From contig OX387194.1 in the NCBI GenBank assembly GCA_947561395.2, positions 17,594,048 to 17,658,047 of the forward strand: 64,000 nucleotides of DNA, given 5' to 3'. Positions 1 through 64,000 of this stretch are shown here, one piece after another. The translations under genes and the position numbers were made by a program. Below the pieces are notes generated by a model. That model was not told where the DNA came from, ran no database searches, and saw only the letters and a program-made list of their open reading frames with translations. Within the stretch, counting starts at the first letter, position 1, and each line of letters opens with the position of its first letter. The stretch is from Buxus sempervirens (Eukaryota > Streptophyta > Magnoliopsida > Buxales > Buxaceae).

Positions 1-2315
1 TAAGAAAGACAAAAACTAGAGTAAAAATAACTCAATTTTAAAATACAAACAAAAAAACAACCAGAGATGGGTAAGGGGATTAGGTTATGAACAGGGGAAG
101 GTATTAGGCACCCCTATTCATCCACACAAGGTGGTTGCCAGGTATTGTTCATGTTAAAAATAAAGAAAGCTTGCTTAATAAAGAAAAAATCATAAAAGTA
201 ACAAAAGTGTTTGGTTTTTTATATGAATATCCCGATTAATTCAGAACTTTCAATATGATTATGCCATTCCTAGGGTTTCATGATTGAAATAAAATTGAGA
301 TAAAAACAAAGAAAACCCATCTAAAGTATAACCTGAAAAACTAGCTTTAGGCTAAGCCGTTAAAAGGTTGAAAAACTACATTGAAATATATTGATGAAAA
401 CATTGAAGAGTAAAGTTCTTTAGGGTACAGATCTGATCCAGATCTCTCATTAGTTGAGAGATAGAACTCCAATCAACCCATGTTGATGAAAAAATGTCAA
501 AAGGGAGAGTTTAGACCATAGGATCCTCTCTCAAAATTGAAAATAAACCAAAAATCACTTTGGGAAGTAAAATAATGAATCAAAACCATCTAGGGTATAG
601 ATCTGGTCTAGGTTTCTCATTAATTAAGAGAATATGAGCCAGATTCACCCATATTGATGAAAAAACATCAAAAGGGGAGAGTTTGGACCATAGGATCCTC
701 TCTCAAAGATTAAAACAACTTCAAAATCATCTCATAAAACCCCAGAGGCTACTTTATGGCTTCTGATTTCAGATCTACCATATAGATCATGATAGATCCG
801 GAATCTTAGCCTAATATCACCAAAATCAAGAAAACAGTGATGTAGGTGCAATGGTGTGAAAAATCCCAACTGTAGGAGGAAAAGAGGATCTCATGCTATA
901 AACAATATGGATCCATAGGATTCTTCCAGATTTAGAATAAAACCATTAAAACATTAACAGAATAGTAAAAGCAACCACATATCATAGATTTTAGCAAATA
1001 GGGGCCTATCCTACGGATCCACCTGTTCTCTTTTCCCTTAGCTCTCTCTTCACGTTTTACGGCTAGAGAGGAGTCTTGGGGTACTTGGAGATAGGTTTGG
1101 GGATACAAACACAATCAATGGCCTTATTCTACAAAAAAGAGAGGAAAAGAACAGACTATAGGGTTCTATTCTAAGGATCCACCTGTTCCCTTTTCCCTAG
1201 CTCTCTCTTCACGTTTTACGGCTAGAGAGTCTTGAGGTACTTGGAGGCAGGTTTGGGGATACAAATATAAACTAGGCCTTATTCTAAAGAAATGGAAAAG
1301 ATTAGACTATCTCTAGAATTAAAAACAGAAAATAAAAGAGAAAAGGGACTTACCTGGATTGAGAAAGCAGAGAGGCAGGGGTTCCCTTCTTCTCTTAGAG
1401 CTCTTCAAGCTTCAGATTCTCAGCCTTTTGCTTGACGAGAGACCCTCTATTTATAGGCAAACCCAGGGGCATGGTTGGTCCCAGGGATATGCCAAAATAG
1501 GGTTCCAGAATGTTCCAATTGAGTTTCAAAGAAGGAGTTAAGGTAAATCAATTAAACAATGGAGGGTAAAAAAGGGGATTCAAATTTCCTAGATAGTGGT
1601 TTGAGTGTAAATAAGGCTAAGAAATCGAAAAATGATGAATTCACACGAAAAAGCTCGCGACCGCATATATGATGCGGTCGTGCCTTGATCGCATTTAAAA
1701 TGCGGTCACCACCAGTCCGCATTAAAAATGCGGGCATGACAGGTTTTACCAATTTTTAACAGTTGTTTGACCTGTTTCTGCACAGGCAATACTTATTTAC
1801 ATGTACTATCATTTAAGTAAATTTCCTTGTATTTTTTAATCTCCATTTACTTAAGATATTACATGTAAATAAGCAAACACCCACCCATTTGAATCCATTA
1901 AAAATAGTTCTAGAACCAAATTCCAAGTGAATAAAAAGTCAACTTTTCAGCTGAAGGATAAATTTTGGTTTTTCAGGTCCAATAAAAAAGATTTAACATG
2001 TTCATACCAAGGTATTCGTTGAGATTTAAAGGCTCAAAAAATTCATTTATGCAATAACATTGCTAAAAACCTGATTACTTGAAAAAATTATCTTGAAATC
2101 TTGCCTTAAAAAAATATTTCATTTTTGGGGGTCAAAAGTCAACAAAATTCAACCGGAAAAAGTTTGACTTTGTGCAAAAAATTGAATTTGGGCCTTTTCC
2201 TTTGTGGTTTTGGATTCAAATGGGTTAAGGATCTCAAACCCAAATTGAAAATTCCAATAAGATATTTCTCTCCTTCATGATTTTTCAAAAATCGTGCAAT
2301 TTTGGGGTGTCTACA
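1..2315 (-). mobile_element. LTR of Tat-like gypsy family (copy A), cut by window edge
   Basis: On the minus strand this reads from TGTAGACACCCCAAA at 2315 towards the window start. It shares blocks with three other copies at 6465-8307, 35927-37726 and 46035-47840: the block around GGTGCCTAACACC (near position 100), a twice-repeated leader hairpin (about 1030-1060 and 1200-1230), and a hairpin array at 1657-1740. Roughly 100 bp of its end lies outside the window. About 450 bp near 1780-2240 has no match in the other copies. No polypurine tract adjoins 2315, so it is a solo LTR or a 5' LTR of an element lying to the left. Its right flank AACGG would be the TSD, but the left partner is not visible. 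Confidence 0.8.
1657..1740 (-). promoter_or_regulatory. Hairpin-array module in LTR copy A (3 units)
   Basis: Three imperfect dyads follow one another with a 28-bp period. Each has arms of the type GACCGCAT and ATGCGGTC around a short AT-rich loop. The array lies in the U3 part of the LTR, before the transcription start expected from the related copies. The same architecture with different arm sequence recurs in the other copies and upstream of two cargo genes. Confidence 0.65.
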
Positions 2316-6464: not shown

Positions 6465-8307
6465 TGTGAGACATGGAAAATCAATTCGATGACTTCCTGA
6501 TCCTCACACGGGCTTAATAAAATCATGGGAGTTGCAACCATTCTTTTTAGGTGTGAATGGTCACCAAAATCACAAAATAAAATACAAAATGAAAACTAGA
6601 GTAAAAATAACTCTATTTTAAAATAAAAATAAAAAATGAAAAATAACAAAAGAAACCAGAGCTGGATAAGTTGATAGGATTATGAATAGGGGAAGGTGTT
6701 AGGCACCCCTATTCATCCACACAAGGTGGTTGCCAAGTATTGTTCATGCTAGAAAGAAAGCTTGCTAAAAAAATCCAAATTAAAAATAAAGAAAAAGAAT
6801 AAATAAAAATGTATGGCTTTCTCCATAGGAATGATTCAATTAATTGTGGATCATTCCAATGAATATATACCATTTCTTGGGTTTCATGATTGGGTAAAAT
6901 CAAAAGAAAACAAACTTAGATTAAAAACAAAAAAAAAGGAAGTTTAGACTGTAGGATCTTCTCAGAAAGATTAAAATCCCTTTAAAACTGCCTTATGATG
7001 TTGAAAAATTAATCTGAACAATTCTAGGGTACAAATCTAGTCCAAACCTCTCCTTAATTGAGAGATCTAAACCAGATACACCCATGTTGATGAAAAACAT
7101 TAAAAAGGTAGAGTTTAAACCATAGGATCTTCTCTCAAAAATTAAAATGACTAAAAAATCATCTCATGATATTGAAAATGAATCTGAACCATATAGGGTA
7201 TAGATTTGGTTCTGATTTCCCATTGGTTGAGAGATCTAAACTAGATTCACCCATGTTAATGAAAAATATAAAAAATGGAGAGTTTAGACCATAGGATCCT
7301 CTTCCCAAAAAATTAAAATAATTCAAAAAATCACCTCATAAAACCCGAGAGGTTACTTTAAGGCTTCTGATTTCAGATCTACCATATTGACCATAATAGA
7401 CCCAAAATCCTAGCCTAATAATAAAAACATCAAAAAGGAGAAATTAATGTAAAAAACAAAACTTTAGGAGGAAAATAAGATCTAATCTATGAATAGCATA
7501 GACCCATGGTATTCCTCTATACTTCAACAATAAACAATCATATATCTTAAACAAAGTATTAAAAATAAATGAATCAAAGATTACAACACATAAGGGCCTA
7601 TCCTACGTATCCATTCCTGTCCTCCTTTCACCTAGAACTCTCTTCACGTTTTACGGCTAGAGAAGATACTTGAGGTACTATGATTTAGGTTTGGGGTTGC
7701 AATCACATACAGGCCTTATTCTACAGAAAGGGAGAAGATCAGAATAATCCTAGAAATTAAAACTAGAAAAATAAAAGAAAAGGAAAGGCATGCCTGGATT
7801 TCTAAAAGTAGAGAGACAGGGGTTCCCTTCTTCACTTGGAGCTCTTCAATCTCCAACTTCTGGCCATTTGCTTGAGGTGAGGCCTCCTATTTATAGACAA
7901 GAGCTAGGGCAAAGGGGGGTCCCAAGGGCAGACCAAAAATAGGTTCTAGAACGTTCCAACTAAGTTTTAGAAATTGAGTTGGAGTAAAATTGAGAACCAA
8001 AAGAGGGCAAAATAGGGAAGACGGGCCTCTTAGAGAGAGGTAAAAATAGTTTAAGGCTTAAAAAATGAATTTTTATGAAAATGCCCAAAAATATGCGCGA
8101 CTGCATTTGCATTGCGGACAAGCCTTGTCCGCATTTTCAACGCAGTCACGTAATGTCCGCAGATCAAATGCGGTCAAGGCTCGTCCGCATACCAAATGCG
8201 GACAGCACAGGTTTGACCAATTTTTCACCTTTTTTGACCTGTTTCAAATCCCAATTAAATATTTTTCTTTATTTTCTCATTTTGTAGTGCAATTTGGGGT
8301 GTCTACA
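6465..8307 (-). mobile_element. Solo LTR, Tat-like family copy B
   Basis: A 1843-bp LTR with ends TGTAGACACC and CTCACA on the minus strand, flanked by exact 5-bp duplications AGAGG (6460-6464 and 8308-8312). There is no internal region, so it is a recombination relic. It carries one copy of the leader hairpin block (about 7640-7670), where copies A, C and D have two. A hairpin array lies at 8097-8208. It is nested in gypsy element 1 close to that element's 3' LTR. Confidence 0.9.
8097..8208 (-). promoter_or_regulatory. Hairpin-array module in LTR copy B (4 units)
   Basis: Four dyads with a 28-bp period and arms of the type GTCCGCAT and ATGCGGAC. Same place relative to the LTR start as in copies A, C and D. 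Confidence 0.65.
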
Positions 8308-35310: not shown

Positions 35311-35339
35311 AAAGTGTCCTTTACATATAACACCTGAGT

Positions 35340-35640: not shown

Positions 35641-36027
35641 ATCTCTGTTTCTATGCTGCCGTTCAGCAACAACCCAGCGACGGCTTCGTTTTTTTTGATT
35701 TTTTTAATATTACTTTTAGCTGTGGTAATTCCTACCAGTAAAAGTCATTTTATTATTTTTTTAAAAGCGTATTTACTGGCAATTATTACTATCGATAAAA
35801 GTGAGAAGGACTTAATTGAAAATAATTTTTAGTGGCAGTCAGCTTCCGTCGGTAATGATAGAGCAATAGCTGTGGTTGTTTTTTTACCACCGCTAAAACC
35901 TTTAGCGTCAGCATCTTTTGGGGCAGTGTAGACACCCCAAATTGCACTAAAAATGAGAAAATAATTGAAAATATTAATTGGGATTTGAAACAGGTCAAAA
36001 AAGTGTAAAATCTGGCCAAACTGGTCA

Positions 36028-36140
36028 TGACCGTATTTTGTTTGCGGACTAGTCATACCTGCAATTGATACACGGTCACGGCGTGCCCGTATTAATAATA
36101 CGGGCAGGGCACGACCGTAATATATATACGGGCACGGGGG
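36028..36140 (+). promoter_or_regulatory. Hairpin-array module in LTR copy C (4 units)
   Basis: Four units with a 28-bp period. The third is a perfect dyad, GCCCGTATTAATAATACGGGC with its centre bases shared. It lies about 100 bp from the LTR start and about 200 bp before the TATA-like box. Confidence 0.7.
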
Positions 36141-44456: not shown

Positions 44457-46034
44457 CACTACAAAAAAGGACACTTTTACCGGCGGTAGCTTACCGCCGG
44501 TAAAACAACAATTACCGCCGCTAAAACCATTTTCGGGGGTAACTCCTCTTGCCGTAAAAGATGCCGTCACTAACGCTTATAGCGGCGGTAAAAAACTTAC
44601 CGCCGCTATTGCTCACTCATTACCGGCGGTACCTTACCGCCTCTATTGGTATCACTCATTACCGGCGGTAAGTTACCGCCGCTATTGCCCATTCATTACC
44701 GGCGGTCGATTACCGCCGCTATTGTTACCACTCATTACCGGCGGTATTTCTGGCTTTTAGCGGCGGTATTTCCCGCCGCTAAAACTCATTTTAAAAAATT
44801 AAAAAAATGACATCATGTTTTTTAGCGGCGGGAAATACCGCCGCTAAAAATCATATTAAAAAATAAAAAAAAAATTTGCTGCTGTCCTTCAGCAGCATAC
44901 ATGCCGAGAGATGGAGAGGGAGAAAAAGAGAGAGAGAGAGAGAAGTAGAGAGGGAGAGAAAGAGAGAGAGAGAGAAAGAGAAGTAGAGATGGAGAGAAAG
45001 AGAGATAGAGAGAAAGAGAAGTAGAGAGGGAGAGATAGAGAAAGAGAGAAGTAGAGAGGAAGAGATAGAGAGAGAGAGAAGTAGAGAGGGAGAGATAGAG
45101 AGAGAGAGAAGTAGAGATGGAGATAAAGAGAGAGAGAGAAGTAGAGATGGAGAGATAGAGACATACCTTGAAGAAAAGAAGAGGTTCGGCGGGTATTTAT
45201 AGAGTCAATTTTTAGCGGCGGCATATAGATTACCGCCCCTAAACCTTATATTTTCCGCGCCCGCGAGTTGAATTCAATTTGAAAATCGCGCTTAAACTTT
45301 TAGCGGCGGTAATTACCGCCCCTAAAAGTACAGTCAAAATTGAAACGCGGGGAAAAGTCCTGCTTGAACCATTAGAAATGGTCTTTTAGTGGCGGTAACT
45401 GGCGTACCGCCGCTAAAAGTAATTTCTGGTTTTTTAATAAATGGCTTTTAGGGGCGGGAATTTGGTTACAGCCCCTAAAAATGGACTTTTAGCGGCGGTA
45501 ATACGGTTACCGCCCCTACAAGGAGCCTTTTAGGGGGGGTATATACCGCCTCTAAAGGTCCAACTTTGATTTTTCCTAAAAAATGAAACAGGTCTTTACC
45601 GGCGGTTTAACCGCCGGTAAAAGACGTGTTATCGGGTTATTACCGGCGGTTCCCAAAACCGCCGGTAAAAGGTGCACAATATTTCACCAGAGCAAGTTTT
45701 TTTTACGACGGTAATCGCTTTGGAGCCCCTAAAATGGACTTTTAGGGGCGGTAATACGGGTACCACCCCTAAAATGGACTTTTAGGGGCGGTAATACGCG
45801 TATCGCCCCTAAAATGGACTTTTAGGGGCGGTAATACGATTGCCGCCCCTAAACGGAGACATTTAGAGGTGGTATATACCGCCTCTAAAGGCCCCACTCT
45901 TGTAGCAGGAGATTTTTTCTAAAAAATGAAAAACTCCTTTACCGGCGGTTTAACCACTGGTAAAAGACGTGTTATCCGGTTATTACCGGCGGTTTTCAAA
46001 ACCGCCGGTAAAAGTTGCACATTATTTCACCAAG
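44457..46034. mobile_element. CACTA element 2, left part, cut by large gypsy element
   Basis: Starts CACTACAAAAAAGG and carries dense TTACCGGCGGTAA and TTTTAGCGGCGGTAA repeats (44475-44860 and 45210-46010) around a GA-rich core (44900-45165). It matches CACTA element 1 read in the opposite direction. Its other end lies beyond the large gypsy element and outside the window, so its TSD cannot be checked. No transposase is visible. Confidence 0.8.
44900..45165. repeat. (GAGAGA)n purine-rich core of CACTA element 2
   Basis: GAGAGAGAAGTAGAGA-type units repeat with a period near 30 bp. The minus-strand open frame across it (Ser-Leu repeats) is not a gene. Confidence 0.85.
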
Positions 46035-47019
46035 TGTGAGACATGGGAAAAAATCATTTTGAATGATTTCCTCAATCATCACACGGGATTAAATTAAACA
46101 AAGAGTCGCCACCATTCAATTTAGGTGTGAATGGACACCAAAATATTAAATACGCACAAAAGGCAAATTTTAGGGCAAAATATCCCTCCTAAAAAAAACA
46201 ACCAGAGATGGGTAAGGGGATTAAGTTATGAACAGGGGAAGGTGTTAGGCACCCCTATTCATCCACATAAAGTGGTTGCCAGGTATTGTTCATGTTAAAT
46301 TAAAGGAAAAAGCTTGCTATAAAAATCACACAAAATCACAAAAAGGCAAAAATATATGGTTTTTTCATATGAATATTCTGATTGATCCAGAACTATCAAA
46401 CATGATCATACCATTCCTAGGGTTTCATGATCAAAACAAATTTGAGATAAAATCGAATAAAATCAATTTAAAGTGAAAAATCCAAAAATCTGGCTTCAAG
46501 CTAAATTCTAGAAATCTAGAAAAATATGATTTTTATAAAATATTTCAAAATTGAACTTGAACAGTCCAGGATATAGATAAAGCCCAAATTTCACATTAAA
46601 TCAGAAAATAAAAACCAAAAATACCCACGTTGATGAAGAACACCAAAAGGGGAGAATTTAGACCGTAGGGTCTTCTCTCAATAATGAAAAACAATTTAAA
46701 AACCACATCATGAACCCTAGAATTTATTTTCAGGCTTCTGGATTCAGATCTATCATATTGATCATGATAAATCCAAGATCCTAGCCTAAACTCACAAAAA
46801 TCACGAAAACAGTGCTGTAGGTGCAAAAGTGGCAAAAATCCAAATTTTATAAAATAGTGGGGATCTCATGCTATAAATATCATAGATTCATGTTATTCAT
46901 TCAGATATATCATAAAAAGCATTAAAACATGATCAAAATATTTAAAACAGCCATATCTCACAGATTAGAGCACATGGGGGTCTACCCTACGGATCCACCT
47001 GTTCTCTTTTCCCCTAGTT

Positions 47020-47205
47020 CTCTCTTCACGTTTTACGGTTAGAGAGACTCTTGAGGTACTTGGAGATAAGTTTGGTTACAAAAACACAATCACAGGCTTT
47101 ATTCTAAAAAAAAGAAAAAAAACAGATACGGGGTTCTATTCTAGGGATCCACCTGTTCCCCTTTCCCCTAGTTCTCTCTTCACGTTTTACGGCTAGAGAG
47201 ACCCT
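47020..47205 (-). repeat. Duplicated leader hairpin in LTR copy D
   Basis: Two copies, about 155 bp apart, of a conserved block whose sense strand reads CTCTCTAGCCGTAAAACGTG then AAGAGAG. It can pair CTCTCT with AGAGAG around a fixed loop. The block is also duplicated in copies A and C and single in copy B, and it lies downstream of the TATA-like box, hence in the RNA. Confidence 0.6.
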
Positions 47206-47632
47206 TGAGGTACTTGGAGGCAAGTTTAGGAATACAAAAATAGATATGGCCTTATTCTACAGCAATAGAGATGATCCTATTACATCTAGAATTGAAGACA
47301 AAAAATAAGAAGGGATAGGGGACTTACCTGGATTGAGCAGGCAGAGCAGTAGGGATTCCTTTCCTTCTCTTGGAGCTTTTGATTCTTCAAAATTTCGTCG
47401 CCCTAAGCTAGAGGAATGAGCCTCTATTTATAGACACACCCAGGGGTATGGTTGGTCCAGAAGGATATAGCCTGGTCTTTAGGATAGAGTGAAATACAGA
47501 GATAATGCCCATCCATAGCCAACCAAGGTGGCTTCAGCGAATAAAACACTTAATTCGCTCGTTTAAAGATATATTGGACTTCAAATAAAGCTCGGAAATC
47601 GAGAGAAGGACAAAACTTGCACGTGACTTTAA

Positions 47633-47740
47633 TGCCCGTAAATGATTTACGGTCCAATGGTGACCGTATTGGTACTACGGGCGCGCCTGCCCGTAGATAT
47701 TTGTCGGGCGAGATCGGCCCGTGAAGAAAATACGGGCAAA
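47633..47740 (-). promoter_or_regulatory. Hairpin-array module in LTR copy D (4 units)
   Basis: Four units with a 27-28-bp period and arms of the type GCCCGTA and TACGGGC. Same position in the LTR as in copy C. Confidence 0.7.
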
Positions 47741-47840
47741 GCCTGTTCATTCTATTTTTAGGCTTTTTTGACCTGTTTTAAACTCTAATTACATGTTTTT
47801 ATTATTTTCTCATTTGGCAGTGCAATTTGGGGTGTCTACA

Positions 47841-47854
47841 GCTGCCCCCTCTTT
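47841..47854 (-). promoter_or_regulatory. Polypurine tract of gypsy element 2
   Basis: Reads AAAGAGGGGGCAGC on the sense strand, abutting the LTR. This is what marks copy D as a 3' LTR rather than a solo LTR. Confidence 0.85.
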
Positions 47855-48191
47855 GCTGGTAATTGGAACCAATTACAAGCAGAGAGCAAAAAGACCCACC
47901 AATTGCACCTTCTGAGATTTTTGTATAATCAATTGCACTTTGCAAGGATAAAATGGATGATTTTTGAAAAAAGAATTGATTGTGGAAGATTTGCTAAGAA
48001 ATCCCTCAGCTTAAGGGCCAAATCTTCCTCTCTCCTCTCACTGAGCACTTGTGGGCTATGAAGTGAGATTTGAGACAAAATTTTTTAAACAAAAGTGGGT
48101 AAGATGGCAATCCTTGCAACTTACAACTAATATCTACATTAATCTTTTAAAAATTGTGAGAAAATAATAAAAATATGCTGTTTTTTGCTTC

Positions 48192-48293
48192 GCCCGTATT
48201 GTGCTTACGGACAGACGCTGCCCGTAGAATGTTCACGGGCGACCGGGACCGTAGTGTTTTCACGGGTGTCTGATGCCCGTACTGATGTTACGG
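48192..48293 (+). promoter_or_regulatory. Hairpin-array module upstream of the antisense PMD gene (4 units)
   Basis: Four GCCCGTA...TACGG dyads with a 27-28-bp period, followed by TTACGGATTTTACT. It lies outside the LTR, 1.45 kb before the PMD start codon. It is followed by a likely 5' untranslated exon ending at a CAG/GTATGC donor (48692/48693); an intron would then run to the AG directly before the ATG at 49744. No clear TATA box follows. Confidence 0.6.
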
Positions 48294-49743
48294 ATTTTAC
48301 TCTTCTTCTTAAGCTCACGACTGCGACCATTTCTCCTCTGCTCGCACTGTGCCCTATTTCCTCCGCGACCGTGCTTTCTTCTCCGGTCCTTGCTTCTTCT
48401 TCTCCAAGCGTCCGACTTCATCTCCGACGACGTCCACCGCTTCCGGCGACTACTGTTCCCTCCGGTGATCTCCGATTTCTCTGGTGGCATTAACCTTCTT
48501 TTCTCCTTATTTCGAGCGACTGCCGAGACTTGCTTTGGCCATCTTTGAGTCAAGCTTCTTTATTGCCCGACCAGTGCACCTTCTCATCACTTGGGATTTC
48601 GTTCAAAGCATCCCCAAATATCCATTATCATCCGTGAGTGTGCTCAAAGTTTCAATTTTTACCTTGCCAATTCCTTATTTCAACCTAAACAGGTATGCTC
48701 CGACCATTGGCTTTTCTTGACTAACAGTCCATTGATATACATAATCCTTGCATGAACGATTTCATACTTTTCCTCAATTATGATCCCTTTTCTAAAACAT
48801 GCAACCTGCTCTTGATTATACAAACAATTCCCGAATCTTGATTGATTTCATGATTTATTGTCTGATATGTATGCTAATTCATGACTGCATTTTTCAGCTC
48901 CTGAGATGATACATTCTTAATCTGTGATGTTTACTGTATTGTTGTCTTTAGCTTGTCGCCTGACATGCTTTCATCAAATTTCTGATTCTTCTTCGCCATT
49001 GTTAGCATGTGAGCACTTTGATTCACAAGTATTGCAACCTAAATTTTTGTATCTATCCATGGCTTGCATTGTTTTGATTTTCCTGCCAGTTAATAAATCT
49101 TCAAAATTTTGCTTTTGCTGCATTGTTCAACATTGAATGATTCTCTGATTCTGAATAATGCTTTGAATAATCTCCCCCAAATTGTTGTATGTCCCAAGCA
49201 ACATGTATTCAATGAGTGATTCTTGAGGCATACATTTTGATGTATCTGAATAAATCCCCAAATCTCCCTGTGCCTCATTGCTATGACTTGTTGATTTTGA
49301 TCTGATCTCTTTTTATGCATACTTTTCATGGTTTTCATGAATTTACACTTGAATTAGCCAAGATTTGTAAGCTTTGGACTCTTGTTCATGTTATTTTAAT
49401 CATGCTTCGAAGACCCTGAAAAACAAGTAAAAATAGCCCATTAGATATCTTAGAAGCAAAATAAATTTCAATCTAAACTTTAACAAGCACTCTCTTTTCT
49501 TTCTCATTTTTCCTTTTGTTGTATAATACATAAGAAACACAATCAATTAAAATGGTAAGGTCTCCCAAATTTTGGAGCACTTGAATGTAGTTCTCTTTGG
49601 TCGGATCCCAATTTGGTTGTTCTTCTAAAGCATTTTCCTTATATCCTTCATTGTTCAATCCTACAAACAATTAAACTTGGTTTTAAACGAAAATCAAGTC
49701 ATTAAAAAATAATAATTAACCAACTCCCTGATTCGAACTGTAG
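48294..49743 (+). other. Probable 5' untranslated exon and leader intron of the PMD gene
   Basis: No protein is supported. A good splice donor (AACAG/GTATGC at 48692/48693) and an acceptor (CGAACTGTAG ending at 49743) bracket an AT-rich 1.05-kb stretch. The acceptor directly abuts the start codon, a layout common for plant genes with leader introns. Confidence 0.45.
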
Positions 49744-52633
49744 ATGGCCCGCCTTAGATCGGCTTCCCGAGATCCTGCAGATGAGCCTTCCTCCTCAAGG
49801 GTTAGGCGAGATCCTGCTGATGTGGCCTCGTCTTCGAGGACCGAGAGGGATTCCGATTCTGATATCCCAGATTTCCCTTCTGGGGATTCGCGTGAGGCGA
49901 CCCCAGAGGTATACTCTAACCTTTCTGCAATTTCCTATCCTTTCCCAAAATACATCTTCCTGATTCTTCCATTATTTTCTTTTAGCCGGCTGTTGAGGCT
50001 TTTGGCAGAGATAGGAGCCGTAGCAGACGCAGAGCTGGAGGCAGAGATGGAGGCCATGATGAGGGCCATAGAGGAGGCCGCAGAGGGGGCCGTGGCAGAG
50101 ATGAGGCCAGGACCAGGGTTGAGATCCCTGAGGAGGTGGCTGCCCAGATTAGGGATACCGATCTTCTGCATGGCTTGAGGACTCATCCCTCAGCATGCGT
50201 TAGGGCGGATATCCCTTTGGAGTATCCGATGTCCCATTATAGAGGGAGCTGGGCCAGCTTCACTAGATTTTTGAGAGCTTGCAGTTCGGCCTATCGTCGG
50301 GAGCTAGGCTTGTATGGTTTTGGTATGTTTATCACCATCCCGGACGTACGCTTGGATCGGGCCCTCATTGCAGCATTGTTGGAGAGGTTTTTTCCAGAGA
50401 CACTGAGCTTCCACTTCCCAGATATTGAGATTGGGATCCGGCCTTCTGATTTCACGCTCATCACCGGGATTAGGATGATCGGTGATGTTATTCCTGAGAT
50501 GACGATGCCAGAGGCTGATGAGATTGCTGGTTATCTTGGATATATTGTACTGCCTCCAGAGGCCTGGGATCGGGGGAGAGCGAGATTGTCTCTGACATGG
50601 CTGAGAGAGACTTTCGGGAGGAGGCAGTTTGGCCAGCTCGCTGCCGGTGACCATGTTTTTCCTTTCGCCTTCAGATTTCTTTTTCTGTATATGATGGGAT
50701 CCTGCTTCTTCCCTGAGGACACGACTTCAGTTAGTCCTTACTTCTTGAGTCTTCTGGGAGATCTGCAGCGGGCGAGGAGGTACGCCTGGGGCCCGCTCAT
50801 ATTTGGTACTATTCTGGCTGGCCTGCGCCGATCAGTGAGCGGCCTCTCTACCTCCAGAGGGGCTGGAGTTGGGTGCAGGTTCTTCTGGCCCTTCTTGCAG
50901 GTGAACCTTATTTCCCTTCTTTTTCTTTATCTCTTTCTTTTTATCTCTCCTTTTCTATTCTTTTGACTATTTTCTTCTTTCTTGCAGTTTTTTGCTAGGG
51001 TTTATATTCCCTATTTCCGCCCTACCTCTACGATACCTGAGGAGACGTATCCCATGGCACTTAGATCGTGTCATGTAGAGCACGACTCTGAAAAGAGTCG
51101 TCCCAGGTCCGCCCGGGCCCACTTAGACAGGTTGTACCGGTTTGAGGTAATCTTCTTTAATTCCTCTACTTCTTCTTTTCTTTTCTTCCTGGATCGCATA
51201 TCTGATGTCCTGTTCTGTTTTTCAGCTATTTGTCCCTAGGATGGAGGACATTCATGAGGTGCTGGCCCTGCAGGCATCCAGAGATGATGCATTTGTCCCT
51301 GACCAGAGACGACAGAGATACCAGTTCTTTATTGGGCAGCTGGGCAGCATCTGGTACTGTGGCGAGCGCTTCTTCTTTCAGCATGTGGGAGAGCCGCGGA
51401 TTCCTGCCATCCCGCCAGATACTACTCCTTCCTATCCTCCTATGCCTGTTGATCCTGCCCAGTTCTTAGATTGGACTGAGGCAGAGACATTATTAGAGGA
51501 GGGTGACTATGATGCCTGGTTCAGGCGAGCTTCAGTTGGGTGCCTCATGTCACCTATGCCTGTCCGTGGCGGAGTCACTGAGATAGGAGGGGTAGTGATT
51601 AGGTCCTACGACACCATGGTATGCCTTCTTCCTTTTCTGATCTTCTATATTTTATTAACATTTTTTTGACTTCTTTCTTTGCTATTTCAGGAGGCTCAGT
51701 TGGCAGAGATGAGGTCTCGCTATGCTGATTTAGAGCACCAGCATGATGCCGCGATCGCTGAGCGGGACGCCCTCTATATCACTATTTCAGATCTCCGGGG
51801 GCAGCTAGCCAGAGCCCAGGGCCAGGAGGGTCCATCTGATGCACAGGACCAGGCGGGTTCATCTGATGCACAGGACCAGGCGGGTCCATCTGATACTCAG
51901 GTTAATTTCTTCTTTTATTTCCATTCCTGCTTTTGTATTAGCCTATCTTGTTCTGACTGAATTTTTCTCTTTGTTTCAGGAGTACACAGCTGGCCCCTCT
52001 TCACCTGCTTCACCCGTGCCTATGCATTTCCGGGATGAGGTGTTTTCTGTGGCACGGGTGGAGTTTGTGACATCTCCCAGTCCAGTGGAGGTTCCTGCAG
52101 CAGAGCCCGAGGTCGAGGCTGATATTGTACCTGCTGCTGAGGACGTGCCAGAGTCTGCCCCAGTAGCTGAGACTGCTCCTGCTGCATCTGCTGATGTAGA
52201 TATGGATTCGGCTATGGACGCCGCTGTGGTAGAGCCTACCGTGGAGACTGCGGTGATGGAGGAGGCTACAGCTGAGCCTGAGGTTGATGCAGATGTTCTT
52301 GGGGCCTCTGTTCCTGCTAGTCCTGATATGGAGGATGCTGAGGTGACACATGCTGCTGTTGATCCTTCTGCGGATTCTTCCCGTACAGAGTCTGATCCCG
52401 ATTCTACGGGATATGTAGATACTTCAGGGTACGTCCCTCCTGATCATCCCACTGCTGGCCTTGTGCCTTTATATATGTGGCATGATATTCAGTCTGTTTT
52501 GAGCAGGATGAAGCGTAGCACGGCTCGCAATATTGTGCGGCATGTCTTTGAGCGCAGGCGATCTTCAGGCCGTGGTCGAGGCAGAGGACGAGGCCGTGGC
52601 CGTAGGGGCGGACCTGCATGGTCATTAGATTAG
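49744..52633 (+). CDS. Plant-mobile-domain protein, antisense cargo of gypsy element 2
   Basis: Encoded opposite to the host element's pol. Six exons with GT-AG borders, all introns 72-87 bp and phase 0: 49744-49908, 49986-50900, 50988-51146, 51226-51618, 51691-51900, 51980-52633, giving 831 residues. Residues 1-100 are Ser/Arg/Asp-rich and include an Arg-Gly run. About 100-400 is a plant mobile domain, with core FGMFITIPDVRLDRALIAAL, ETLSFHFPDIEIGIRPSDF and TLITGIRM. About 545-590 is a coiled coil, followed by short SDAQDQAG repeats. The C-terminal part is acidic and Pro/Ala/Val-rich, and the tail is an RGG-type run (GRGRGRGRGRGRRGG). PMD proteins of plants (MAIN/MAIL) act in nuclear silencing and genome stability, and PMD genes are known passengers of gypsy and Mutator elements. 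A role here in regulating or protecting the element is inference. It looks whole. Confidence 0.8.
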
Positions 52634-52836
52634 GATTCTTCCATGTACCTTTGTATTTTTTTGGCAAAAGTGATGTAAACATTCATGTATATAAAAGAAG
52701 TTTGATTTATTTCCATTTGTGTTCTTTCTTCTTTATTTACAGTATTTATTACCTGATGAATGTTAAACAGGGACAGGTGAAGCTTAGGAAAACCAATAAA
52801 ATTAAAAATTCCCATTTTTTTGCATTTTTTCGAAGG
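52634..52836. other. 3' end of the PMD gene and spacer
   Basis: AT-rich tail after the stop codon with GTATATAAAAGAAG near 52687-52700 and no clear AATAAA before 52797 (CAATAAAATT). It leads into the second hairpin array. Confidence 0.4.
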
Positions 52837-52966
52837 GACCGTATTTATTCTACGAGCAGGCTGTGCCTGTAACGTTACTACGGGCGCACTCTGCCCGTGA
52901 AGTTTTCACGGTCAGGCCTGTCCGTAGTTCCTATACGGGCGCGCCTTGCCCGTAGTATAATTACGG
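52837..52966 (+). promoter_or_regulatory. Hairpin-array module upstream of the DUF7745-like gene (5 units)
   Basis: Five units with a 27-28-bp period and arms CCGTA/TACGG or CCGTG/CACGG. It ends TTACGGAATTTACT, like the module before the PMD gene, and stands directly ahead of a TATA box. Confidence 0.7.
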
Positions 52967-52989: not shown

Positions 52990-52999
52990 CTATATAAAC
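52990..52999 (+). promoter_or_regulatory. TATA box of the DUF7745-like gene
   Basis: CTATATAAAC, 24 bp after the hairpin array and 91 bp before the start codon, a good fit to a plant core promoter with a short leader. Confidence 0.7.
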
Positions 53000-53089: not shown

Positions 53090-54891
53090 ATGGCTTCCCC
53101 TACGCCGCTTTCTCCTGCCGTTGAATCTCCTCCTGCAAGACAACCTGTTAGATCAAAACCTCCTAATCTTACCAGGTACAATATTGTGGATTCCTTTTAT
53201 GATAGATGGGTTAACTCCATGACCCTTGATGAGGAGATTCGTTGGGATTCCATCCACTTAGGGCACATCCTACACCTCCCTAAAATTCCCTTTAAGTGGG
53301 AAATCATTGAAGCTTTGATTGGCCACTGGGTACCTGAGCTGAATCTCTTCCGTTTTGATGATAAAGAGATGACTCCCACCATAGAAGAAATTGAAACCAT
53401 CCTTGGCCTAAGATTTTCTGAAAAAGTTATGAATCCACCCCTAAAGCTTAGTTATAAAAAAGAGGCTTCCACTTTTTTGGGTATAGGGAAGAAGGACTTA
53501 GGAAATTCTGATGCACTATTGACCTTGTCCAAGACCTTTTTGACTGAAAAACTTCTGAGGAGTAGTGACAAGGACCCTAGGTTTAATGCATTGACCCTGG
53601 TAGTGGTCAATCAGCTGCTTTTTCCACGGGGTGATGACCAGGTTGACTTGGCTCTCATCTCAGTTATATGTCAGGTTAGGGAACGCGAGAGGTTAGCCCC
53701 TATGATCCTAGCAGAGATATATCAGGCCCTTACTGACTGTTATTTCAAGAAGAAGAAACGCTTCCTTGCCTGCGCCCCTATCCTACAGGTAAAAAATATG
53801 CATATATATATATTTTTTTTATTCTTATTCTTTCCTTTCTTTTTCTTCTCTCTGCTTCTTCTTCTTCTTTTCTTTTTCTTTTCTTTCTTTTTTCTTTTTT
53901 TTTTCTTTTTCTCTTTTTCTTCTTTTTTTTTTCTTTTTCTTTTTTTTTCTTTTTTTCCTTTTTGGGAAATAAATTGAAATACTCCCTTTTTCTGCAGCTT
54001 TGGTTGCTTGACCATCTTAGCCAGGTTGAAGAAATAACTCGTCGCTTCTTTCCAAGATTGAAAGTTCCTGTTTTGATGAGCAATAGGGGATGTCCTAACA
54101 TCCAAGGTGGCAAGCAAGGCTGGTTCGCTTTCTTGGGTACTCTCCAGGATGATCAGGTGAGATGGCCTGGCACTTATCAGCCCACTCCAGAGACAGTGAT
54201 TAGCTTTAGGGATAAAAACTTTCTGGCCCTAACAGGCTTGAAATCTGCTGTTCTCTATCTTCCATTGAGGGTTCTTCGGCAATTTGGAGCGACCCAGGGA
54301 ATTATGATCCCCACAGGTTATGAGAGCTTTGTAAGGCCACTTACATCAGCCACCATGGGGCTAAATGCTCAATTAATGAAAGAGTGGTCCTATGTTTGCT
54401 TTCTGCGGGGTCCCGTCTTTTCTGAGTCCCATGTGAAGGACTATCTTTTTTGGATCAAAGAACAGGTGCAGAGTCATGCCCCAGTACCAGAGGATCCTCC
54501 TGCAGTTCTTCTTCCTACTTATGAGGACATTCTGGAGTCAGAAAGGGCAACCCATAAGCAGCTTCAACAAATATGGGTACGGGAGGCTCAAGAACTTAGG
54601 ATAAAAGTCCTTGTTCTGGAGAGGAAGCTTGAAGAGCAGAAGTCTGGCCGCATTGCCATGGAGAAGAAACTTGAAGAACAAAGGCAGGCTCGTCGCTTTG
54701 AAGTCCGAGTGATGCGGAAGAAGTATCAGGATTCCTTGGCCGACCTTAGGGCGTTGAAGATCAAGCTTTCTTTTTCTGATGAGGTCATCTCCTTTTTGAG
54801 TGATCCTGATGCAGAGGGTGCTTCTGGAATCATTGCAACTCAGGCAGCTAGGATTAGGGAGCTTGAGGAGCAGTTAGGGAATAGGGATTAG
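53090..54891 (+). CDS. DUF7745-like coiled-coil protein, antisense cargo of gypsy element 2
   Basis: Second cargo gene, on the plus strand, with its own promoter. Exons 53090-53788 and 53998-54891 are joined at phase 0 across a very T-rich 209-bp intron, giving 530 residues. The ATG at 53090 (in CTTCCATGGC) is preferred over an upstream non-ATG frame because it is the first ATG after the TATA box. Residues about 30-400 resemble the plant DUF7745 family, which is common in transposon-rich genomes: MTPTIEEIETILGLRFSEKV, the segment FPRGDDQVDLALISVICQV, and LWLLDHL at the start of exon 2. About 415-530 is a long charged coiled coil (RKLEEQKSGRIAMEKKLEEQ, RIRELEEQLGN at the end), suggesting self-association or binding to a partner. 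No catalytic motif is seen. Function unknown. The frame looks whole. Confidence 0.72.
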
Positions 54892-55865: not shown

Positions 55866-58800
55866 TCACGGAAAATATCTCTTTACTGCATCAGAATTAA
55901 TTGGCTCAGGAAAATCTTTCCCATCCATCTCTGTTAAGATGAGAGCACCCCCTGATAGGACCTTCTTGACTATATAAGGTCCTTCCCAATTTGGTTTGAA
56001 CTTTCCACGAGGATCTTCCAAAAAGGGTAAAATCTTCTTTAATACCAGATTTCCTTCTTGGAAAGTTCTGGGCTTCACCTTTTTAGTGTAAGCCCTAGCC
56101 ATCCTCTTCCGATATAATTGGCCATGACTAAGTGCCTTCAAACGTTTTTCTTCTATTAAATTGAGTTGATCATGCCTAGACTGTATCCATTTAGCTTCTT
56201 CTAATTCAGCTTCCATTAGCACTCTTAATGAAGTTATTTCCACTTCCACTGGTAAAACTGCTTCCATTCCATAAACTAAGGAGTATGGGGTTGCCCCTGT
56301 AGAAGTCCGGATCGAGGTTCTGTAAGCATGTAAAGCAAGTGGCAGCATTTCATGCCAATCTTTAAAACTCACTACCATTTTCTGAATAATCTTCTTTATA
56401 TTCTTATTCGCTGCTTCCACTGCCCCATTCATCTTTGGTCTGTAAGGCGCTGACTTGTGGTGGGTAATATGAAATTGTTCACACATCTTCCTCATGTCTT
56501 TGTTCTTAAGGTTTGAAGCATTGTCTGTTACTATGGCACTTGGCAAACCATAGCGGCAAATGATGTTGCGCTTCAAAACCTTAAGAACATGGCTACTCGT
56601 AATGTTTGCATATGAAGCTGCCTCTACCCACTTGGTGAAGTAATCAATTGCTACAAGTATAAACCTGTGTCCATTTGATGCCTTTGGGGAGATCATTCCA
56701 ATGACATCTATACCCCACATAGAAAAAGGCCACGGAGATGTCATACTATGTAATTCACTTGGGGGTGCATTCTTGTTATCCGCGTACACTTGGCATAAAT
56801 GACATCTTTTAACGTGCATATAGCAATCATGCTCCATAGTTGACCAGTAATATCCCAATCGCAGAATCTTCTTGGCAAGCATATGCCCATTCATATGGGG
56901 TCCACACACTCCTCCATGTACCGTTTCAACTATCCTTTCTGACTCAGTCTTTGCAACACATCTAAGTAGTATATCATTGTGTGATCTTTTGTACAACTGA
57001 CCACCACTTAGTAAGAACTGTCCTTCCAACCTCTGTATTGTTCTTTTTTCTGTAGAGGCGACATTTTCTGGCAAGCTCCGATCATTTAGGAAGTTCTTAA
57101 TGTCTTGAAACCATGGTACTTCTTCTTCTGGGGTTTCTTCTAGAACAAGGCAGTAAGCTGGTTCATCCCTGACTTCAATTTCCAATGGTCTAATATCAAC
57201 CCCTTCTGGCATACTGACCATTGAAGCCAATGTTACTAGAGCATCCGCAAACTGATTTTTGGCCCTTGGCATATAATTGAAGGAAATTCGAATAAACTTG
57301 GCGCCTATTTTTTCCAAATACTGGTGATAGGGGATCAATTTGTGATCCTTGGTTTTCCATTCACCAGTTGTTTGGAAGATGATAAGACTCGAATCCCCAT
57401 ATACGTCAAGTTCCTCTACTTCATGGTCTAAGGCTGCTTGCAACCCAATTATGCATGCTTCATACTCTGCTATATTGTTCGTGCATTGGAACCTTAACTT
57501 CACTACGATTGGGATATGTGCCCCATCTGGCTTGATCAAAACAGCCCCTATTCCATTTCCATTCATATTGGCGACCCCATCAAAAAACATTTGCCATGAG
57601 CTTTCACCTTCTTCTTCTTCAGCAAACAAGATTGCCTCATCAGGGAAGTTGGTCTTTAAGGGTTGGTATTCTGGTAAAGGGTGTGCAGCCAAGTGATCTG
57701 CAATGGCTTGACCCTTAATGGCCTTCTGTGTGATATAGGTGAGGTCAAATTCAGAGAGTAACAACTGCCACTTTGCTGTTCTGCCAGTTAAAGCCGGTTT
57801 CTCAAATAGATACTTCAAAGGGTCCATGCGGGATATCAATAAGGTGGAATGACTAAGGAAATAGTGCCTTAGTCTCTGAGTTGCCCTTACTAAAGCACAA
57901 CAAGTCTTTTCTAGAGGGGAATATTTTGCTTCATATTCTGTAAATTTCTTACTCAGGTAGTAAATCGCCCTCTCCTTTCTGCATGTATCGTCATGCTGTT
58001 CTAAGACACACCCCATTGATGTCTCCAAAACTGACAAGTATAAAATCAATGGTCTGCCTGGAGTGGGTGGTACTAGCACAAGTGGGTTCAATAAATACTC
58101 CTTTATTGTTTCAAAGGCTTCTTGGCAATCATTATTCCAGACTGTCGGGTTATTCTTTCTTAGAAGTTTGAAAATTGGTTCACAAATAGCGGTGAGCTGT
58201 GCTATGAACCGGCTTATGTACTGAATCCTTCCAAGAAAACCCCGAACTTCCCTCTCGGGTCTAGGTGATGGCATTTCAATGATGGCTTTAGCTTTAGCTG
58301 GGTCAATCTCAATTCCCTTTCTGCTTACTATAAAGCCCAACAATTTTCCTAATGTAGCCCCAAAGACACATTTCGCAGGGTTAAGCCTTAGACTGTATTT
58401 CCTAAGCCGGTCAAATACCTTCTTCAAGTTGATCAAGTGGTCTTCTTCTTCACATGATTTGGCTATCATATCATCCACATAGACCTCCATCTCTTTATGG
58501 ATCATATCATGGAATAAGGCTGTCATGGCCCTCTGGTAGGTTGCCCCAGCGTTCTTAAGTCCAAATGGCATGACAGTGTAGTGGAAGGTACTCCAAGGGG
58601 TGATAAAGGCTGTCTTCTCTTGGTCTTCCTTAGCCATCTTAATCTGATTGTACCCAGAAAACCCGTCCATGAATGATAACAGGCTATGTACAGCGGTGTT
58701 ATCCACCAAGATGTCTATGTGTGGAAGTGGAAAATCATCCTTTGGACTTGCCTTATTCAAATCTCTATAATCTACGCACATTCTGACCTTTCCATCCTTC

Positions 58801-59507
58801 TTTGGCACTGGCACTATATTTGCAAGCCATTCGGGGTATGTGGAAACTGCTAAGAATCCGGCTTGGAATTGTTTAACCACTTCATCTTTGACCTTTAGCG
58901 TCCATTCAGGTTTTAACCTTCTCAGTTTCTGCTTAACTGGCTTAGAGTCTGGTAGAATAGGTAGCCTGTGTACCACCATATCTGTGTCTAACCCTGGCAT
59001 ATCCCGATACGACCATGCAAACACATCTTCATAATCAGCCAAAAATTGTATCATTTCATCCCGCTGTACCTCAGATAGACATACCCCAATCTTCACTATT
59101 TTTGGGTCATCTTCGGTCCCTAGGTTTATTGATATGGTCTCTTCAATATTGGGTTGGACCCCCTTTTCATGACGCTTTAATTTATATGTGATTTCTTTTG
59201 GAACGTCGTCTTCTTCGTCCTCGGTCTCTTCTTCAACCCCCATTAGGTCAAAGTCGAGCTCAAGGTCGAAGTCATATTCATCCTGATCCAATTCCGTTTG
59301 CTTATATGGTTCATAAATGGTTTGGACCTTTTTGAAAAATTTATCTTTTCTAGAAAAAAATGAAAAATCTTTTTGTGTTTTTTGAGAGCCTTCTACAAAA
59401 TCTTTCCCTGAAGACGAAGGCTCATTAAAACCTTCAGGAAAAGGGCATTCCACTAATGGAATTTTTTTTGGAAGCCATGTCTGTTTGCCAAACAAACTCG
59501 GCTTCAA
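55866..59507 (-). mobile_element. Pol region of gypsy element 2 (RT, two RNases H, integrase)
   Basis: One continuous 1213-codon minus-strand frame. Residues about 225-400 are the reverse transcriptase, with WLANIVPVPKKDGKVRMCVD, MPFGLKNAGATYQRAM and the YVDD box at 343-346. About 480-620 is the ordinary RNase H, and about 690-830 the archaeal-type second RNase H (MFFDGVANMNGNGIGAVL, then CTNNIAEYEACIIGLQAAL). The zinc-binding HLCQVYAD region and a DDE integrase core follow (GIDVIGMISPKASNGHRFIL, KSAPYRPKMNGAVEAANKNI), with a GPYIV tail motif. The double RNase H assigns it to the Tat lineage. This part looks whole. Gag-protease and this part lie in different frames, which the Ogre/Tat group is known to bridge by removing a small intron. 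Confidence 0.92.
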
Positions 59508-60864: not shown

Positions 60865-63080
60865 CTGCTCAATGACATTGAACTCACTCTTTTTTATTAC
60901 CTTGATGAGGTCAGCAGCCTCACTGTTAGTTACCTGAGGGGTTTCTTCCCCTACCTTGGCCTTTCCTTTAATTTTTTTCTCCTTCTTTCTCCTTCTCTGT
61001 TTCCTTTTGTTTTTCTTCCACCCCTACACATTTTCCTGACCTCATCATGAGGTTCACTTCTTCCTTGCTTTCAGCTGCAGGACATGTAGTAGTAAATGTC
61101 TCACTGTAGCTCCATGGTACAGCCGATTCAATGTAGGAAGGCTTGGGGACGTTCACCACCAATGGGGGAAGTTTGGGCTTGGCGATGGAAGTCTGAGTAA
61201 TAGGAACATTAACAACCAATGGAGGAAGTTGTTTTGGTTGAGGGGTTGCAAAAGTGACTGATGCACTAAAGGGGTCACAATTTATGACCAGTGGTGGCTT
61301 AGACTGAATGGGTGGAGTGAAAGTGGATGGATTAATGACCAAAGGTGGCTTAGCGATGTTCATCTGGGCCATGAAGGATGAGACCCGGTCCAGAGATGAG
61401 CTAATGTTCTTTACAGCACTATCATTCCCCTTTGAAATCATATTTATTTCTTTGCTTTCACTTCTCCTGTCAAAATATACTTTGACCGTTGTCCCTATGT
61501 GAGCAATTAATTGAGATGGGTCAAAGGTTATTTTGTCAGAAGAGATGACTCCTATGACATTAGATGGGCCTGCCCCGTGATGCTGGGGCAGTGGGTTTTG
61601 TCCAATATCTATTCTTGGAGGATTGGGAGCCCCTGTATTGAAAGACAGGGTATTCTGGTCCAGTAAATCCTGAATGGCATGTTTCAAAGGCCAACACTTG
61701 TCAGTAGGGTGCCCAGGTGCACCCTACTGATAGTCACAAGTGGTGGAAGGGTCAAAATTTCTTCCCTTAGATGCATTTGGATTAGGCTCTCTTAAAGTGA
61801 TATACCCTCCTTGCAATAGAGTGGGCAGCAATTGAGAGGGAGTCATTGGAATAGGGGTGAAAACCCTATTTCTCCTTGCTGCAAAATAAGCATCCTTTTC
61901 CTCTTTGGTAAAAACCCTTTTTTTGGTCTGAAGGTGCTGCTGGAACATTAACCCTCATGGGGGCCTGTGATGACACTGGTGGGGTAGGAAAATGTGCAGG
62001 TACGTTGATTTGTATGGGCTTGTTAGGGCCAGATGGTGGCTGTACCATGTTTACCTCACCCTCCTTCTTGTTCCCATTCTTTTTTGTCCCGCTTCCTTTC
62101 TTCTGATTAAGGTCTTGCTGACTAACCATGGCAGAGTGGTCAATTATCTTACCTGACCTTATTCCATCCTCAATTCGGTCAGCCACCTAAACCAAAGCTG
62201 CAAAATTAGTGGTGGTCTGACCCACCAAGTGGCTGTAGAATGGTTGACCCAAAGTGCTTATGAAAGTAGAAATCATTTCCTGTTCTAGCATGGGTGGCCT
62301 GACCTGGGAGGCCGTCTCCCTCCATTTCTTGGCATATTGCCTTACAGTCTCATCCCTTCGCTTGCTCATTCTCATGACGTCGTACCTATCTGGCATGATC
62401 TCTGAATTGAACCGGTATTGAGCCAGGAAGGCATCGGCTAGGTCCTTCCATCTTTTGATCTTTCCATGGTCCAGAGTGGCGAACCATCTTAATGCGGTTC
62501 AAGTCAGGCTCCTTTGGAAAAGTTGGATCAAGATACCCTCATCCTGCCCAAACTGGCATAGGGCACCGCAATACAACTTTAGGTGGCTCATGGGGCAACC
62601 AGTGCCATCATACTTGTCGAAGTCTGGGCACCTAAACTTAGCCGGTAGGTTAACATTGGGGTATAGGCACAGGTCTTCAAAATTGGTGCCCCCAAAGTTG
62701 TTTACCCCTTTGACTTCCCTTAGTTCATCTTGGATCATTTCTAGCTTATGCATGAACTTTCTTTCCACCTCTTCCCTTATCCTTTGCTTTTCCTTAGCCT
62801 TGTTTGATTCAGCTGTCTCATCCCTGGTCAGTGTAGGTTCAGGGGTGGGTTCATAGACGGGTTCAGGAGTTGGTTGCACTGGAGGTGGAATGTTGACTGG
62901 GGGTGGAGGTGCAGGGTTGGATGTGGATGCCTGGTTCTGGGCCTGCATTTGTTGGGCCTGCACTTGTTGGGCCTGTACTGACAGTATGTTCTCTAGCATT
63001 CGGGCTAGTCCTGCCACTTGTTCTTGGAGTAGAAACATCTGGATGAGGAGCATCAACTTCATCTTCAACGGGATTCATGG
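60865..63080 (-). mobile_element. Gag region of gypsy element 2, broken
   Basis: The minus strand shows a gag start with MNPVEDEVDAPHPDVS (near 63077), a gag core with DLCLYPNVNLPAKFRCPDFD and KYDGTGCPMSHLKLYCGAL, then RQYAKKWRETASQVRPP. Pro-rich repeats of the PPLVVNVP type follow (61100-61360). The frame is interrupted in about three or four places. Confidence 0.8.
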
Positions 63081-63312
63081 CTCGAGCTCTTGATCTGGTT
63101 ACCGAAGCTATGATTGCAAATTTATTGGTACCTGGAAAATAAAAAGAAAATATCAGTGCCAATTTAGTCTCATTCACGTGTTTAGGAATGCCTATGTGCA
63201 AGCTGGGTGAACACGAGTTTGGATTATTTCTTTTTATTTGCTTCTTTTTTTTTTCTTTTTGAATTGTTGGAATATTCTAGGGCTTCCAACAGGTCCCACA
63301 AAAGAGAGAAAG

Positions 63313-64000
63313 ATCTGAAATTCAAAGGCTTTCAGAGGCCCGGGGGGTTTTTGAAAAAAGGTCTGAAATTCAAAGGCTTTCAGAGGCCCAGGGATATTTT
63401 TGGAAAAGGTCTGAAATTCAGAGGCTTTCAGAGGCCCGGGATTTTTGATGAAAGTCTGAAATTCAAAGGCTTTCAGAGGCCCAGGGATATTTTGAAAAAA
63501 GGTCTGAAATTCAAAGGCTTTCAGAGTCCCAAAAGTTCTGAAATTCAAAGGCTTTCAGAGGCCCAAAAGTTCTGAAATTCAAAGGCTTTCAGAGGCCCGA
63601 AGGAAAAAGGTCTGAAATTCAAAGGCTTTCAGAGGCCCAAAAGTTCTGAAATTCAAAGGCTTTCAGAGGCCCAAAAGATAAAGGTCTGAAATTCAAAGGA
63701 TTTCAGAGGCCCAAAAGTTCTGAAATTCAAAGGCTTTCAGAGGCCTAAGAGAAAAAGGTCTGAAATTCAAAGGCTTTCAGAAGCCCAAAAGTTCTGAAAT
63801 TCAAAGGCTTTCAGAGGCCCAAAAGTTCTGAAATTCAAAGGCTTTCAGAGGCCCAAAAGATAAAGGTCTGAAATTCAAAGGCTTTCAGAGGCCCGAGGAA
63901 TTTTTTGAAAAATCTGAAATTCAAAGGCTTTCAGAGGCCCAGGGTTTTTTTTTTTTTTTTTTTGAAAAATCTGAAATTCAAAGGCTTTCAGAGGCCCAGG
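63313..64000. repeat. Tandem hairpin repeat, 17 visible copies, in the 5' leader
   Basis: The core CTGAAATTCAAAGGCTTTCAG followed by AGGCCC is repeated 17 times to the end of the window, at spacings of 34 to 57 bp set by variable A/T/G-rich linkers. Each core pairs CTGAAA with TTTCAG around a 9-nt loop. The array lies upstream of gag, so it belongs to the element's untranslated leader. Open frames in both directions are by-products of the repeat. Confidence 0.9.

Follow-up and report, generated by a model that had tools for sequence, protein, structure and literature searches.

In the Drosophila gypsy element, an array of Su(Hw) sites in the leader acts as an insulator. VANDAL (MULE) elements, which are associated with VANC proteins, carry dense tandem repeats of one short motif in several noncoding places (PMC5735166). 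PMD proteins are encoded by Ty3/Gypsy retrotransposons of many angiosperms, with the clades PMD-A1 and PMD-A2 (PMC5418596), and two host proteins of the family, MAIN and MAIL1, take part in silencing through a mechanism still to be established (PMC5418596, PMC7156037). The accessible parts of these sources demonstrate no DNA binding by Arabidopsis PMD complexes, and recognition of a promoter motif by the MAIN/MAIL1/PP7L complex is left open by the authors (PMC7156037). Here, we analyzed a stretch of 64,000 nucleotides from Buxus sempervirens (contig OX387194.1, positions 17,594,048 to 17,658,047; hereafter the window), focusing on a Tat-like Gypsy element with two antisense cargo genes, PMD and DUF7745. 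The results showed that this element carries four arrays of short inverted dyads, one each in the U3 region of its long terminal repeat (LTR), in its gag leader, and upstream of the DUF7745 and PMD genes. These arrays are probably tandem binding sites for a dimeric, sequence-specific DNA-binding protein, as predicted from their sequence.

A preliminary description of the window had placed arrays in LTR D and before the PMD and DUF7745 genes, the last of them 24 bp before a TATA box. All of these were recovered, with TATATAAA at 52991, and additional arrays were found in LTRs A, B, and C and in the gag leader. The features within the window are as follows, where T type denotes CCGTA/TACGG arms and C type denotes CCGCA/TGCGG arms:

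47634..47737, minus strand: dyad array in the U3 of LTR D, 4 dyads, with a degenerate third dyad in the window's copy
48192..48294, plus strand: array of 4 dyads ahead of the PMD gene, with starts 28, 27, and 28 bp apart
52839..52966, plus strand: array of 5 dyads ahead of the DUF7745 gene, with starts 28, 28, 27, and 28 bp apart
52991..52998, plus strand: TATA box TATATAAA, 24 bp past the DUF7745 array
36031..36131, plus strand: dyad array in the U3 of LTR C, a mixture of T and C types
1661..1733, minus strand: dyad array in the U3 of LTR A, arms mostly of C type
about 8101..8201, minus strand: dyad array in the U3 of LTR B, arms mostly of C type, 2/8 half-sites degenerate

The gag leader array, comprising five dyads, lay just outside the window (window-equivalent positions 64306-64434). 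It was foreseen from two other loci, L091 and L092, in which a five-dyad array stands slightly less than 3 kb beyond the U3 array, and was then located at the corresponding place. At L092, the frame following the leader array resembled the gag of the window by eye; at L091, the array stood at the same place and the piece read stops ahead of any gag-like frame.

The repeating unit of the arrays was the dyad CCGYA-N7-TRCGG, 17 bp long, with a period of 27-28 bp. We measured 12 arrays from the window and loci L091-L094 using a chain finder that permitted inner spacers of 6-8 and outer spacers of 10-12 only and that took one of the two blocks at L094. The inner spacer was 7 in 49/50 dyads and 6 in the remaining one; thus, of the 7-8 bp between the arms proposed previously, 7 was borne out and 8 was not. 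The spacer between dyads was 11 in 33/38 cases, 10 in 4, and 12 in 1. At the first 50 places of CCGTA-N0..30-TACGG in the genome, the inner spacer was 7 in 44 (hand count), and at the first 50 places scored for TACGG-to-CCGTA spacing, the values were 11 in 25, 13 in 5, and 10 in 4. All 12 arrays began with a forward half-site, ended with a reverse half-site, and contained a whole number of dyads, indicating that the unit is the dyad with its AT-rich 7-base middle. The combination of strict inner and looser outer spacing corresponds to the layout of tandem dimer sites. Across 100 half-sites, successive positions were G (87), C (51) or A (36), C (94), C (94), G (99), T (79) or C (19), and A (85) or G (15); the two letters ahead of a CCG were preferentially GC or GA. 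A relaxed search of the window returned 17 dyads and five runs of at least 2 dyads at 26-28 bp (LTRs B, C, and D, PMD, and DUF7745); 200 first-order Markov sequences yielded a mean of 0.175 dyads and 0 runs.

Pattern counts were then taken over the 676.5 Mb genome. The T-type tandem pattern CCGTA-N7-TACGG-N10..12-CCGTA gave 24,212 matches (12,120 forward and 12,092 reverse) compared to 9 for the control (2 + 7), and the C-type tandem pattern (CCGCA) gave 4,004 (2,045 + 1,959) compared to 1 (0 + 1), showing that the arrays do not occur at random genome-wide. The number of arrays is several-fold lower than that of matches, because matches overlap within arrays and on both strands. The same layout with A or G at the variable base remained at chance (11 + 8 = 19; control 5 + 9 = 14). 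Allowing any Y, we obtained 33,683 matches (16,825 + 16,858; control 4 + 10), of which 5,467 mixed T and C (any-Y minus pure T and pure C). Under free mixing, the cube roots of the pure fractions would sum to 1; the sum here was ~1.39, so T and C types cluster, a pattern that would equally arise in families of related copies. Raw dyad counts (31,251 and 24,127 per strand) showed no excess over reversed controls (32,774 and 49,273), in which the CpG is missing; the informative measures are the tandem patterns and the spacing spectrum alone. Regarding the C type, coordinates alone hint at several array pairs within ~1 kb, with T-type neighbours there not listed. The LTR start at C1:5002265 (minus strand) has a mixed-type U3 array (C1:5002099-5002159), and on its other side, at a distance of ~0.8 kb, lies a C-type array (C1:5003078-5003110) that is a possible C-type cargo promoter.

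We assessed conservation in the 30 best BLAST matches per query. In the PMD copies, arms varied at 0.8%, loops at 9.3%, and flanks at 10.6% (arm/loop P = 5e-5), and in the DUF7745 copies at 1.1%, 2.8%, and 2.9%, respectively (P = 0.011). At CpG bases, the corresponding values were 0.6% (18 bases), 20% (5), and 21.5% (31) for PMD and 1.5% (20), 6.1% (6), and 3.3% (14) for DUF7745. The conservation of arms over loops was strong at PMD, weak at DUF7745, and not significant at LTR D. Half-sites fitted CCGYR in 237/240 cases at PMD, 228/240 at LTR D, and 257/300 at DUF7745, where one half-site was TACGA in 30/30 copies. To these we added copies anchored by an LTR stretch containing the U3 array but not the PMD array. 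Among those with an internal side, the PMD array stood at the expected place in 17/19, the window's copy counted and locus L087, where dyads are present, left out. The DUF7745 array was followed by TATAAA no more than 40 bp past a half-site in 29/30 copies. Most copies thus retain the array.

Placement was surveyed on the first 8.14 Mb of C1, where 100 listed T matches formed 44 clusters. Sixteen of the 44 sat 144-173 bp inside an exact 18-base LTR start (shift control: mean 0.036, maximum 2), a sequence found 9,336 times in the genome. Another 16 clusters, by hand count, were paired blocks 84-134 bp apart, one of which was read (L094). At L094, the array has a TATA box next to it on the minus strand, and a similar pattern 12 kb away suggests an LTR pair and hence an LTR-type second family; the family carrying the array beside a TATA box is probably an LTR family. 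Between the two array blocks of L094 (~390-430) we noted GGGACGCGTGTCCCGCCGTAC and a second ACGCGTGT, and some of the five TACGG-N13-CCGTA places mentioned above likewise fall between the blocks of such arrays. The arrays are therefore not confined to the LTRs and cargo promoters of one family, the pattern that the preliminary description had put up for checking: they also occur before gag, in the second LTR-type family, and at many other loci. Genome-wide, a dyad was followed by TATAAA at 5-35 bp in 3,563 cases (1,762 + 1,801), compared to 19 (11 + 8) in the control. A bacterial promoter scan of the region upstream of DUF7745, a scan type unsuited to plant DNA, gave no match.

Taken as binding sites, the 3-5 dyads standing in file every ~28 bp would each bind one protein dimer. 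Arrays in the U3, in the gag leader, and before both antisense genes would let a single factor act on all transcription units, and the bound factor would presumably affect transcription, either as an activator or as an anti-silencing platform. One DNA-binding factor for sense and cargo transcripts, as proposed in the preliminary description, is the natural prediction from finding the same array in the U3 and before both antisense genes.

Several results weigh against this interpretation. The conservation sample, consisting of best matches, represents related copies. At LTR D, arms varied at 1.1%, loops at 2.2%, and flanks at 1.4% (P = 0.17), with CpG-base values of 0.6% (18 bases), 6.1% (6), and 0% (4), respectively. 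The PMD array was missing in 2/19 LTR-anchored copies. Many LTRs lack a strict array, since 64 of the listed LTR starts fall on the surveyed stretch of C1 and 16 clusters meet one, and 28/44 clusters have no exact LTR start nearby. A dyad was followed by TATAAA at 65-95 bp in 2,961 cases (1,456 + 1,505; control 21 + 25 = 46), a distance control that is not clean, being partly inflated by several dyads per array. As these counts nearly equal those at 5-35 bp, TATA nearness is a trait of some families and no general rule. Furthermore, the TATA box of LTR D lies ~200 bp from the array, and no TATA was seen beside the PMD or gag arrays.

We also considered whether the cargo arrays were derived from the U3 and found no support for this origin: outside the half-sites, identity in phase (18/48 for PMD/DUF7745) was no higher than in many other registers, and the ungapped PMD/DUF7745 alignment (115 bp at 65%) was carried by the half-sites. 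Of the two earlier suggestions for the cargo promoters, matching to the U3 is supported and derivation from it is not, non-half-site identity being at chance in the registers tried. The half-sites are all that the LTR and cargo arrays detectably have in common, so the sites seem to be kept by selection rather than by recent copying. At C1:9756849, the end of a PMD-like array is joined to a DUF7745-like TATA region, which suggests an exchange between cargo promoters.

The host element and its genes were delimited as follows:

46035..47840, minus strand: LTR D, the 3' LTR of the 21.5-kb Tat-like Gypsy element, with start TGTAGACACCCC and polypurine tract GGGGGCAGC
49744..52633, plus strand: antisense PMD gene, ATG at 49744, the start and several exons being predicted
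53090..54891, plus strand: antisense DUF7745 gene, two predicted exons (53090-53788 and about 53990-54891)
55866..59507, minus strand: pol, with reverse transcriptase, two RNase H domains, and integrase
62499..63068, minus strand: part of gag, named by its place and its likeness to the L092 frame

The element occupies the minus strand from 46035 to ~67506 in window numbering, its 5' LTR starting at window-equivalent 67506, beyond the window end. CCAAG was present at both ends, and the LTR pair differed by 13 mismatches and 3 gaps across 1742 aligned bp (99.08% identity). The pol domain order was RVT_1, RT_RNaseH, RVT_3, and rve, i.e., with reverse transcriptase and integrase separated by two RNase H domains, as reported across Tat elements (PMC9289625). 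The element is young and Tat-like. The gag frame had no Pfam gag match. The two opposing genes, DUF7745 and PMD, occupy the interval between pol and the 3' LTR.

The PMD gene frame at 50136-50966 matched Pfam PMD (PF10536) with an E value of 4e-17 and 62.9 bits, above the curated cut-off of 34.9. The first DUF7745 frame matched PF24924 (E 1.7e-20) and also exceeded the PMD cut-off (PF10536, E 2.7e-11, 43.7 bits); the second frame scored 16.4 bits for PMD, under the cut-off. Given the result for the first frame, the two genes are probably old duplicates, with 23% identity between the compared frames. PMD and DUF7745 were the only Pfam matches of the cargo frames, and neither frame matched a solved structure up to E 1. 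In a pattern search, exon 1 was open in 19/30 DUF7745 loci, two of these being shorter. By eye, the C-terminal stretch of the DUF7745 protein has the look of a coiled coil, a feature that would fit a dimer. The PMD product ends in an arginine-glycine run, GRGRGRGRGRR (window 52540-52633), which we take to be like RNA- or DNA-binding tails.

A cargo protein of these elements, PMD or DUF7745, acting in the manner of VANC, is the boldest candidate for the array-binding factor, and a plausible one. In its favour, the cargo genes are themselves under the array, half-sites of T and C type segregate, and there is a precedent in VANC; the arrays of the second LTR-type family weigh against such a factor. 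The main rival is a host transcription factor exploited by these retrotransposons, with another role for the cargo proteins, and we regard it as a serious possibility. A host factor is favoured by the presence of arrays ahead of gag and in two or more LTR-type families, not just beside the cargo, and plant LTRs commonly use host factors. However, the partly segregated T and C half-sites are not the obvious product of a single host factor. In addition, plant factors are not known to have GMCCGYA-N7 dyads as their sites, and a literature search on LBD factors gave no result. More speculatively, and with less confidence than the candidacy itself, a DUF7745 or PMD dimer could recognise CCGYA-N7-TRCGG, switch on or unsilence the LTR, gag, and its own genes, and co-evolve with its sites, so that T and C elements would have split into separate circuits.

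It is unlikely that the arrays serve as a silencing or boundary platform, whether through CCG as CG/CHG methylation sites or through a bound protein that insulates sense from antisense transcription. Every half-site does contain CCG, the arrays stand between opposing units, and the leader array is placed like the insulator of Drosophila gypsy. However, the U3 array and the array 24 bp before the TATA box look like promoter parts, and an element should not retain a site that serves host silencing.

A role of the dyads as hairpins or cruciforms in DNA or RNA appears very unlikely, although single-stranded DNA folds of five arrays were better than those of shuffles (z -2.5 to -7.9) and dyad 3 of DUF7745, with both arms altered, still pairs as CCGTG/CACGG in 25/30 copies. 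The predicted folds differed from array to array, and at DUF7745 the array precedes the TATA box. Moreover, mismatched dyads were retained: PMD dyads 2 and 3 (both CCGTA/CACGG) in 28/30 and 29/30 copies, respectively, DUF7745 dyad 1 (CCGTA/TACGA) in 28/30, and LTR D dyad 4 (CCGTG/TACGG) in 30/30. Imperfect dyads thus mostly stay imperfect, which favours half-sites read singly by a protein over selection for pairing. Of the hairpin module described previously, the inverted dyad form was confirmed and the hairpin role became doubtful. Base-pair covariation on the listed 33-mers was set aside, the single canonical orientation biasing the shuffle. Finally, a functionless by-product of tandem duplication, which the regular 28-bp period might suggest, is scarcely credible given that half-sites are kept whereas loops and spacers vary, both inside an array and from one array to another, that the A/G version of the layout is at chance (19 vs 14), and that PMD arms and loops contrast as they do.

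Other repeats were noted in and around the element. Tandem repeats of ~34-48 bp (TCTGAAATTCAAAGGCTTTCAGAGGCCC) occupy 63309-63941, with the gag leader array on one side and the gag frame on the other, and related repeats are visible in L091 and L093. LTR D contains a 109-bp direct duplication (46976-47084 / 47130-47238, 86% alike), and LTR C carries this duplication as well. The two LTRs, 88% similar, point toward each other. Repeats like TTACCGGCGGTAA at 34266-35926 and 44594-46034 adjoin LTR C and, at its outer end, LTR D; they look like CACTA subterminal repeats.

If the proposed circuit is true, LTR retrotransposons would possess a self-contained control circuit in which one site serves several promoters and two antisense genes. 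It would be the retrotransposon counterpart of VANDAL/VANC and give the PMD family, whose molecular function is open, a testable job and a first activity. The dyad site is a short and exact one, with tens of thousands of matches in the genome. The titles and abstract starts listed by literature searches, some of them directed at extra genes or at repeats and palindromes in LTRs, contained no description of the dyad module, which is weak evidence of novelty as subscription journals were mostly outside coverage; a search on DUF7745 returned 0 papers.

Compared with known systems, the Su(Hw) array of Drosophila gypsy likewise places repeated protein-binding sites between LTR and gag, but has a single site type in one place, a zinc-finger host protein, and no antisense genes. 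Elements carrying gene23 also have antisense genes downstream of pol, with the gene23 promoter upstream of the gene and a nuclear protein product; the accessible part of that source describes no dyad array common to LTR and gene promoter and does not mention PMD. The Gypsy-encoded clades PMD-A1 and PMD-A2 resemble the present case in the Pfam PMD matches of the PMD gene and first DUF7745 frame, whereas the accessible portion of their description gives no target DNA motif (PMC5418596). As in VANDAL elements, tandem motif arrays lie in the noncoding parts of the Buxus element, motif variants (there also named C and T type) mark subfamilies, and proteins are encoded by the element alongside the arrays, according to the available text (PMC5735166). 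The Buxus motif, however, extends beyond one element family, its arrays reside in LTR retrotransposons, and the protein that would bind it is a candidate. The arrays of the VANC21 motif, YAGTATTAY, have a single orientation (same part of PMC5735166), whereas the Buxus arrays are strict two-sided dyads with fixed spacing.

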